Assembly: GCF_013340845.1 (NCBI RefSeq)
Contig: NZ_AP020335.1
Coordinates: forward strand, 2,356,001 to 2,420,000
Reading direction: 5' to 3'
Source of the DNA: Hydrogenovibrio marinus
GTDB taxonomy: Bacteria; Pseudomonadota; Gammaproteobacteria; Thiomicrospirales; Thiomicrospiraceae
DNA: 64,000 nucleotides
Part shown: positions 54,239 through 56,489 of the stretch, in pieces
Numbering within the stretch: position 1 is the first letter of the stretch
Layout: every line of letters starts with the position of its first letter
The notes under the pieces: model-generated
What the model saw: the letters and a program-made list of their open reading frames with translations, nothing else
Database searches by the model: none
What the model was told of the DNA's origin: nothing
Program-made: the position numbers and the translations under genes

Positions 54239-54673
54239 ATGACCACTAATTTAACAATGACATCAGAAGCGAAAGCGCCACTGATTAAAGATTACAACCG
54301 TAACCCACAAACTGAAAAACACTTGGCTGAAAACCCAAGAAAAACTGTTTTGTTACTATTACAAGGTGTTGTTGATAAAGGAAATTTGGCAAAAGTATGC
54401 CATCAATCCAACGCTTTGGTTGAAAAAGGATTCCACCTAGGTCGTATGACAACGATTCTTGACGCACTTCGTGACCGTTTGAGTTTGACCGAACACACTC
54501 CGATTGCGTACGATCTGGAAGAACTTTATCACTATGCTGATAAAGCGATTCAAGAAGCTGTCTTTGAAAAAGATACTTTCTATCTAGACAGCGCTATTGA
54601 GATTCTTACCGAGCTAAGAGATGCTTGGTTGGAAATGATGCATCAAACAGGTGAGCTCGGCGATCACGCTTAA
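54239..54673 (+). CDS. FliS-like protein, isolated from flagellar genes
   Basis: A 144-residue helical protein. From KTVLLLLQGVVDKGNLAKVCHQ through GRMTTILDALRDRLSL to LDSAIEILTELRDAWLEM it follows the five-helix layout of FliS, the chaperone that caps flagellin before export. No other flagellar gene is within reach of this window, so it may be a second FliS-type protein with another partner. AAAGGAAAAC is the ribosome site. It has its own terminator. Family call moderate, partner unknown. Confidence 0.6.
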   Translation: MTTNLTMTSEAKAPLIKDYNRNPQTEKHLAENPRKTVLLLLQGVVDKGNLAKVCHQSNALVEKGFHLGRMTTILDALRDRLSLTEHTPIAYDLEELYHYADKAIQEAVFEKDTFYLDSAIEILTELRDAWLEMMHQTGELGDHA

Positions 54674-54849: not shown

Positions 54850-55410
54850 ATGAGCCTAAAAAACACTCCTAATAGCTTCGGCCTAGTTTCTCGCGCAAAT
54901 CACTGGATTTCAGCTTTTGCATTTATCCTAGCGCTTATCACCGCTTTCGCTGCCGAAGAATTTATGGCAAAAGGTGAGGCAAGAACCGCCGTGTTCCATT
55001 TGCATTTTTCATTGGGGATCAGTTTATTTCTACTAATGATTCTTCGAGTCATCTGGTTGAAGATGTCACCCAACCCAGAAGACATCGGTGAAAATCGTAT
55101 GGAAATCGTGTTGAGCCACATCGTCAAAGGCTTCTTGTACCTTTCATTGATTGTCATGCCGATCTCCGGTTATATGATGGTCAGCGCAGGCGGACACGAC
55201 ATCCCTTTCTTTAATCTATTTACATTACCGAACTTAGTTGGCGAAAACCCTGACATTAAAGCCATTGCCAAACCGCTTCATGTTTACAGCGGGTTCTTCA
55301 TCACGTTCATTTTGATGGTACATATTGCAGGTGCTTTGAAACATCATTTAGTTTACAAAGATGACGTGCTTAACCGCATATTGGGTCGCTCTTCATCTAA
55401 GCCAGAATAA
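54850..55410 (+). CDS. cytochrome b561-family membrane protein
   Basis: A 186-residue four-helix membrane cytochrome of the bacterial b561 (CybB/YceJ) type. Haem-ligand histidines lie in RANHWISAF, FHLHFSLGISLFLLMILRVIW, KPLHVYSGFFITFILMVHIAGALKHH. The family accepts electrons from quinol or superoxide at the inner membrane. It is monocistronic, between the FliS-like gene and rpoH. Electron partner unknown. Confidence 0.85.
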   Translation: MSLKNTPNSFGLVSRANHWISAFAFILALITAFAAEEFMAKGEARTAVFHLHFSLGISLFLLMILRVIWLKMSPNPEDIGENRMEIVLSHIVKGFLYLSLIVMPISGYMMVSAGGHDIPFFNLFTLPNLVGENPDIKAIAKPLHVYSGFFITFILMVHIAGALKHHLVYKDDVLNRILGRSSSKPE

Positions 55411-55512
55411 GCCCATTTAAAACCTAGAAAAATTTTAAATAGTAAAAATAACTATTTGTTTTTCTAAAGTTTTAATAAAGTCTGTCGATACAATGAATAT
55501 CGCAAAAAATGA

Positions 55513-55539
55513 TTAGCACTCTCTTGACTTGAGTGCTAA
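55513..55539. promoter_or_regulatory. perfect CIRCE operator (HrcA site) at the rpoH promoter
   Basis: TTAGCACTC (55513-55521), nine bases, then GAGTGCTAA (55531-55539): an exact match to the consensus CIRCE element TTAGCACTC-N9-GAGTGCTAA. It overlaps the -35 of the predicted rpoH promoter, so HrcA bound here would block transcription. Confidence 0.93.
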
Positions 55540-55551
55540 TTTCTGTATATT
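55524..55551 (+). promoter_or_regulatory. sigma-70 promoter of rpoH within the CIRCE region
   Basis: TTGACT (55524-55529) and TATATT (55546-55551) are separated by 16 bases. The -35 lies in the CIRCE spacer and its edge. Transcription would begin near 55558, excluding the in-frame start at 55529. Confidence 0.7.
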
Positions 55552-55591
55552 AGAGTTAATGAAAAAGATGACTCAACAGGAGCAGGATTGT

Positions 55592-56443
55592 ATGACAAAT
55601 CAAATGATTCCGTTTAGCGCGAGCCTTACTCCAGGACAAAACATCGAACACTACCTGGCAACCGTTCAAACTCTGCCTGTCTTAAGTGCAGAAGAAGAAC
55701 GCTCGCTTGCTGAAAAACTTTATTACCAACAAGACCTAGAAGCAGCCAGACAACTTATCTTGTCGAGCTTGCGCTATGTCGTGCCTGTTGCCCGTTCTTA
55801 TAAAGGTTATGGTTTACCTTTAGGAGACTTGGTGCAAGAAGGTAACATCGGTCTAATGAAAGCGGTAAAACGCTTTAATCCAAACGAAAATGTTCGTCTA
55901 ATGACGTTTGCTGTGCATTGGATTCGTGCTGAAATCAACGAATATGTGATTAAAAACTGGCGTATCGTTAAAACAGCAACCACCAAAGCGCAACGTAAAT
56001 TGTTCTTCAAACTAAGAAGCACAAAAAAATCGTTGGAATGGTTTGGCGACAAAGATGCCGATGCGGTTGCAAAAGAACTTGGCGTTACCCGACGTGATGT
56101 ATTGGAAATGGAAACCAGACTTTACGGTCAGGATTTACCGGTAGATATGAGTTCTGATGATTCAGAAGACTCAGGTAAAACTTATCCTATCTTGGTCAGC
56201 CAAGAGTTGGATCCAGAAACACACTTGGTCAACGAATCTCAAAGTGCTTATGAAATGGGCATGATGACATCTGCGCTTGCGAACTTGGATGAACGTAGCC
56301 AAGACATTATCCGCAAACGCTGGTTAACCGAAGATAAAGTCGGCTTGAAAGAGTTGTCTGAAATTTACGGTGTTTCTATGGAACGTATCCGTCAGATTGA
56401 ACAACAAGCTTTATTGAAAATGCGTGCTAACATGCAAGCTTAA
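55592..56443 (+). CDS. rpoH: heat-shock sigma factor sigma-32
   Basis: A 283-residue sigma-32. Region 2 includes GDLVQEGNIGLMKAVKRFNPNENVRLMTFAVHWIRAEINEYV, the RpoH-specific box reads QRKLFFKLR, and region 4 ends with GVSMERIRQIEQQALLKM. ATG 55592 was chosen: AGGAG lies 10 bases ahead, and the predicted transcription start near 55558 excludes the earlier in-frame starts. It drives heat-shock genes. The CIRCE element places it under HrcA as well, linking the two heat-shock circuits. A terminator follows. Confidence 0.95.
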   Translation: MTNQMIPFSASLTPGQNIEHYLATVQTLPVLSAEEERSLAEKLYYQQDLEAARQLILSSLRYVVPVARSYKGYGLPLGDLVQEGNIGLMKAVKRFNPNENVRLMTFAVHWIRAEINEYVIKNWRIVKTATTKAQRKLFFKLRSTKKSLEWFGDKDADAVAKELGVTRRDVLEMETRLYGQDLPVDMSSDDSEDSGKTYPILVSQELDPETHLVNESQSAYEMGMMTSALANLDERSQDIIRKRWLTEDKVGLKELSEIYGVSMERIRQIEQQALLKMRANMQA

Positions 56444-56460
56444 GCATCACTCAACACAAT

Positions 56461-56489
56461 AAAAAAGCCCCTATGTTGGGGCTTTTTTT
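56461..56489. terminator. rho-independent terminator after rpoH
   Basis: AAAAAAGCCCC (56461-56471) pairs with GGGGCTTTTTT (56478-56488). With A- and T-runs on both sides it can act for rpoH and for the convergent membrane-protein gene. Confidence 0.92.

Follow-up and report, generated by a model that had tools for sequence, protein, structure and literature searches.

The rpoH gene of Hydrogenovibrio marinus is preceded by an exact CIRCE element that, as judged from sequence comparison, probably functions as an operator through which HrcA acts on the rpoH promoter (we put the probability at roughly 0.86). The parts by which an HrcA/CIRCE regulon can be recognized, namely the operator, an hrcA gene, the promoter of a heat-shock gene and the co-occurrence of the operator with hrcA, were all found, and comparison across genomes gives good support to HrcA control of rpoH.

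The rpoH leader and its CIRCE element

The window, i.e., the whole stretch of DNA that was analyzed (64,000 nucleotides, 64 kb), contains rpoH at positions 55592-56443 of the forward strand. The product, of 283 amino acids, was assigned to RpoH, the heat-shock sigma factor sigma-32, on the basis of a TIGR02392 score of 362 bits (equivalog cut-off 323). The CIRCE upstream of the gene, TTAGCACTC-N9-GAGTGCTAA, spans positions 55513-55539 of the same strand and is exact, just as an earlier, sequence-only reading of this DNA had described it. It was the sole match at up to three mismatches in the 64 kb window, where shuffled sequences led us to expect 0.01. The distance of 40 bases to rpoH given in the same reading applies to the interval between the -10 element and the ATG, but not to the CIRCE, whose end lies 52 bases before the ATG.

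Within the spacer of the CIRCE lies a predicted sigma-70 -35 element, TTGACT (55524-55529, forward strand), followed after 16 bases by a predicted -10 element, TATATT (55546-55551, forward strand). From the position of the latter, transcription would start at approximately 55558 on the forward strand, and a Shine-Dalgarno-like AGGAG is found at 55578-55582, again on the forward strand. A pattern search of the window yielded neither sigma-32-type nor sigma-E-type sites upstream of rpoH. We also considered an RNA thermometer in the rpoH leader. The fold of positions 55558-55700 gave no signal of one: its minimum free energy indicated no added stability with respect to shuffled sequences (z = -0.11), with the caveat that such structures can escape detection. 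Right behind rpoH, an inverted repeat (AGCCCC...GGGGCT) with a run of T residues at 56460-56489 looks by eye like a terminator. Two genes upstream of rpoH, an open reading frame at 54239-54673 resembles the flagellar chaperone FliS, with a score (45.4 bits) under the curated cut-off of 53.75.

A search for other CIRCE sites, one of the checks proposed in the sequence-only reading, was carried out on the entire genome, a single contig of 2.49 Mb, and returned two elements at up to three mismatches, both of them exact. One is the element at rpoH; the other, at 404784-404810, precedes groES and then a GroEL-like frame (judged by eye), and comes, again by eye, after a -10-like sequence, whereas the rpoH CIRCE encloses a -35. 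A reversed control pattern gave two matches at three mismatches in the whole genome, and one at two mismatches. Because this control also matches at three mismatches, weak CIRCE matches tell little, and it is exactness that counts.

The presence of an hrcA gene was one point on which the sequence-only reading could have failed. The gene was found: the match extends over positions 1815239-1815907 of the reverse strand, and the product, intact and 344 amino acids long, scored 332 bits against TIGR00331 (cut-off 197), so that the reading is not refuted on this point. A single gene on the opposite strand separates hrcA from grpE, and dnaK follows grpE. No CIRCE was found before hrcA or grpE in the H. 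marinus genome at up to three mismatches, nor when the leaders themselves were read. The grpE-dnaK leader has an exact promoter of the sigma-32 type (CTTGAA-N14-CCCCAT); both strands of the 64 kb window were free of exact matches to this motif (CTTGAA/CCCCAT, N12-16). Because CIRCE occurs only at groESL and rpoH, and the sigma-32-type promoter at grpE-dnaK, HrcA would act on the first two and reach grpE-dnaK via sigma-32. This division of sites, together with the co-occurrence of the operator with hrcA, supports the cascade from HrcA to sigma-32 proposed earlier, and the topology read from the H. marinus sequence fits an HrcA to sigma-32 to DnaK cascade.

In such a cascade, HrcA bound to the CIRCE would cover the sigma-70 -35 element of rpoH and would keep both rpoH and groESL low as long as free GroEL maintained its activity, a GroEL feedback that is known from published work on HrcA. 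Once unfolded protein occupied GroEL, HrcA would lose activity and the rpoH and groESL promoters would open. The ensuing increase in sigma-32 would turn on the genes that depend on this factor, grpE-dnaK among them, and newly made GroEL would finally bring HrcA back. For the rpoH CIRCE we infer binding, repression, induction and GroEL feedback alike.

Distribution of the CIRCE element and of hrcA

Leaders of rpoH were available for 58 of the 62 genomes of the source family, the other four having no rpoH match at 1e-70. At up to two mismatches, CIRCE was present at rpoH in 36 of the 39 family genomes with hrcA and in none of the 19 without it (Fisher P = 1.6e-12, a significance that is overstated, related genomes not being independent). 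The three genomes with hrcA that lacked the element at this threshold (G016, G020 and G023) all belong to one genus, and the leader of G023 was only 42 bases long. Ten of the 11 genomes of the source genus, H. marinus counted, had both hrcA and CIRCE, and the remaining one (G008) had neither; its leader still contains TTGACA-N18-TATCAT, out of register in the alignment. In the sister genus, two genomes devoid of hrcA (G058 and G068) have retained the blocks CTTG(C/A)AAT and TCAGTATATTG, while their CIRCE arms have eroded and now show 7 and 8 mismatches, respectively. This promoter pattern was absent from G031, a third hrcA-less genome of the sister genus. Where they can be traced, then, the CIRCE arms have drifted since the loss of HrcA and the promoter has stayed, as expected of a repressor site.

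The class-wide sample comprised 114 genomes, one per family save for two from the source family, and 103 of them had RpoH over the cut-off. Four of these dropped out: G000 and G015, which were counted with the family, as well as G039 (no hrcA) and G164 (hrcA). The class set examined consisted of 100 leaders from 99 genomes, as G093 supplied two leaders, the better of which was counted. A CIRCE with up to two mismatches was found at rpoH in 64 of the 74 genomes with hrcA, ten such genomes thus lacking it, as compared to 3 of the 25 without hrcA; at up to three mismatches the figures were 68/74 and 4/25. The association between the rpoH CIRCE and hrcA had a Fisher P of 1.7e-11, overstated as above by the nonindependence of related genomes. 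Three genomes in which no hrcA was found (G049, G153 and G183) nonetheless had an rpoH CIRCE with one mismatch (leaders L189, L120 and L149, respectively), possibly owing to a missed gene, an assembly gap or a recent loss. By eye, we also noted a second half-site, GAGTGCTAA, near the rpoH CIRCE in the leaders of G043 and G113 (L163 and L154), as if these genes had two operators now or formerly.

A set of 80 named rpoH loci, two of which (L277 and L258) had leaders of only 2 and 78 bases, gave 42 loci with CIRCE at up to three mismatches. These included Pseudoalteromonas, Dyella, Methylocaldum, Nitrosomonas, Polynucleobacter and Pandoraea, as well as a Herbaspirillum MAG and two Geobacteraceae MAGs. 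At the same threshold there was no CIRCE at rpoH in the named loci from Pantoea, Kluyvera, Serratia, Dickeya, Vibrio and Haemophilus, and none in Xanthomonas pisi, whose best match had 5 mismatches. The leader of E. coli rpoH came no closer to CIRCE than 7 mismatches, and the contrast with E. coli drawn in the sequence-only reading is true. Going by these sites, HrcA control of rpoH is the predicted common state among HrcA-bearing members of the class, the E. coli-like groups being exceptions.

How much this control would matter is addressed by a different view, which is compatible with an HrcA operator but would make its role minor: HrcA would bind and merely trim rpoH, with the heat response of sigma-32 depending mostly on the control of translation, activity and stability. 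The CIRCE leaves the -10 and the start uncovered, so that repression might well be partial, and in E. coli sigma-32 is controlled mainly after transcription. We nevertheless regard mere trimming as rather unlikely. The operator follows hrcA across relatives, so the CIRCE presumably matters to the cell, and the fold of the rpoH leader, no more stable than shuffled sequences, shows no sign of an RNA thermometer, though such a structure may be missed.

Much less credit is due to the idea that the rpoH CIRCE is a relic, or that it forms a hairpin in an mRNA begun at a promoter farther upstream, and is not a repressor site. CIRCE repeats are able to pair as hairpins in mRNA, but at rpoH the element lies upstream of the predicted start of a conserved promoter, and so should be untranscribed; moreover, its arms have decayed in the hrcA-less G058 and G068 though the promoter pattern remains. 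Finally, HrcA control of rpoH could be seen as a rare rewiring unique to the source lineage, inasmuch as the degenerate pattern with the -35 in the spacer, at 0 mismatches, was confined to 2 of 369 class genomes, at rpoH in H. marinus and before hrcA, not rpoH, in the other. Uniqueness is, however, contradicted by the rpoH CIRCE of the 68 hrcA-bearing class representatives (at three mismatches) and 42 named loci reported above, as well as by the published prediction for Geobacter sulfurreducens (PMC545781), and we find it highly improbable.

Predicted promoters overlapping the CIRCE element

The sequence-only reading had described a good sigma-70 promoter with its -35 under the CIRCE. The promoter is present and conserved in the genus, but "good" does not apply to its consensus score, which is at chance level: TTGACT-N16-TATATT (55524-55551) was found once, against 1.1 expected. 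The promoter is credible because TTGAC in the spacer is conserved across the genus, where it was found in 10/10 CIRCE sites (H. marinus counted), as opposed to 0/72 class-wide. At sister-genus sites, TTGC is present in the spacer of 19/26. The -10-like hexamers of the source genus lie 16-18 bases past the -35. When the -10 scores at 15-19 bases past the -35 were summed over each genus, values inflated by the relatedness of the genomes, we obtained 46 for the source genus, against a shuffle mean of 36.6 (a sum that 1 of 1000 shuffle sets attained), and 92 for the sister genus, against a mean of 72.9 (reached by 0 of 1000). No single genome gave a significant -10 score (lowest P 0.10). In Polynucleobacter (L261, positions 564-590), the CIRCE at rpoH has TTGACA in its spacer, and the genome has no RpoE match. 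The locus may have acquired a -35 within its CIRCE independently, but as there is no clear -10 at 16-18 bases, we do not claim it as convergent.

Class-wide, GAAC precedes the CIRCE in 51 of the 72 sites (at up to three mismatches), as searched between 18 and 8 bases ahead of the element, a range that was chosen after viewing the alignment. The offset of its start from the CIRCE is narrow, being -15 in 39 and -16 in nine of the 72 sites. Correspondingly, the gap between GAACNN and CIRCE position 8 (the TC of the left arm, which would begin a sigma-E -10, TCTNA) is 16 bases in 39 sites, 17 in 9, 15 in 2 and 12 in 1. The rpoH gene of E. coli MG1655 carries GAACTT-N16-TCTGA, known as the sigma-E promoter P3. 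Spacer position 12 was A in 47/51 sites with GAAC, compared to 9/21 without (P = 2e-5); T at spacer position 10 was not distinguishing (33/51 vs 16/21), and the two bases together occurred in 30/51 sites with GAAC vs 6/21 without (P = 0.04). In the GAAC-bearing genomes, HrcA would thus cover the -10 of a sigma-E-like promoter. Among the literature matches listed, none reported an overlap between sigma-E and CIRCE at rpoH, as judged by titles and abstract openings.

In the class set, GAAC before the CIRCE was found in 51 of the 63 genomes with RpoE over the cut-off and in none of the nine without (P = 3e-6); G184, counted among those nine, does match RpoE, with a score under the cut-off. An out-of-sample confirmation of this link failed. 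For the 42 named loci with an rpoH CIRCE, GAAC was present in 18/34 with RpoE and in 4/8 without (Fisher P = 1.0); the RpoE search took in 45 genomes, with L227, L236 and G337 outside the 42. The four named loci with GAAC and no RpoE (L215, L231, L252 and L273) are all titled as MAGs, and in 16 named loci, a good number of which are Burkholderiales by name, RpoE is present and GAAC is missing before the CIRCE. Pooling the class and named sets gave GAAC in 69/97 with RpoE vs 4/17 without (P = 5e-4). A link between GAAC and RpoE is a candidate for a general rule.

As for the source family, none of its 62 genomes had RpoE over the cut-off (one, G068, had a match of 101 bits vs a cut-off of 236), and the H. 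marinus genome had no RpoE match at E values of 1e-40 or 1e-25. In the two genera of the family that bear CIRCE, GAAC was found in 0/10 sites of the source genus and in 2/26 of the sister genus, and a pattern of the E. coli P3 type (GAAC, 18-20 bases, TC(T/A)NA) had no match in 55101-55600. With neither the promoter pattern nor RpoE, a P3-type sigma-E promoter at rpoH of H. marinus was discarded. A sigma swap under the rpoH CIRCE, from sigma-E to sigma-70, is probable in this family.

More tentatively, and at somewhat short of even odds, the ancestral gammaproteobacterial rpoH may have had a sigma-E -10 fused to the HrcA operator. Such an arrangement would be an AND gate, in which sigma-32 from the rpoH promoter would rise only with sigma-E free and HrcA off (that is, with GroEL busy). 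HrcA would have disappeared from the E. coli-like groups, which retained the sigma-E half. In the source family RpoE would have been lost and HrcA retained, and a sigma-70 promoter would have been built anew, with the -35 inside the unchanged operator.

Comparison with known systems

Control of groESL by CIRCE and HrcA is of the Bacillus subtilis type, and H. marinus shares with it the operator, the repressor family and the groESL target. The placement of the H. marinus elements differs from that type in that the CIRCE encloses the -35 at rpoH and follows the -10-like sequence at groESL.

HrcA at rpoH as such is not new. For Geobacter it is a published prediction: in Table 8 of Rodionov et al. 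2004 (PMC545781), rpoH of G. sulfurreducens is given a CIRCE, and for the beta, gamma and epsilon groups these authors refer to Permina and Gelfand 2003 (J Mol Microbiol Biotechnol 6:174). Like H. marinus, G. sulfurreducens has an exact CIRCE at rpoH (at -51), hrcA and a CIRCE at groESL; it differs in having a CIRCE also before hrcA-grpE-dnaK-dnaJ (PMC545781), an element that is absent in H. marinus. The Geobacter rpoH CIRCE is itself a prediction, entered in that table without a stated promoter (PMC545781).

The textbook picture of sigma-32 control derives from E. coli, a genome without an HrcA match. If HrcA gates rpoH in most of the Gammaproteobacteria that keep HrcA, the E. coli scheme may be derived, and the HrcA repressor and sigma-32 activator systems would be one cascade in many Gammaproteobacteria. 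The overlap of sigma-E-like promoter and CIRCE predicts that rpoH would integrate envelope and cytoplasmic damage at a single promoter, and in the source lineage the sigma factor was apparently exchanged beneath a fixed operator.

The likeness to E. coli rpoH P3 resides in the 39/72 class sites that share the 16-base gap to the -10 place. E. coli differs from H. marinus in having no CIRCE in the rpoH leader and no HrcA match, whereas H. marinus has no RpoE match and no GAAC -35. Set against these systems, the H. marinus rpoH is, by its predicted sites, of a widespread and known kind, with a promoter arrangement in its lineage that is unusual.
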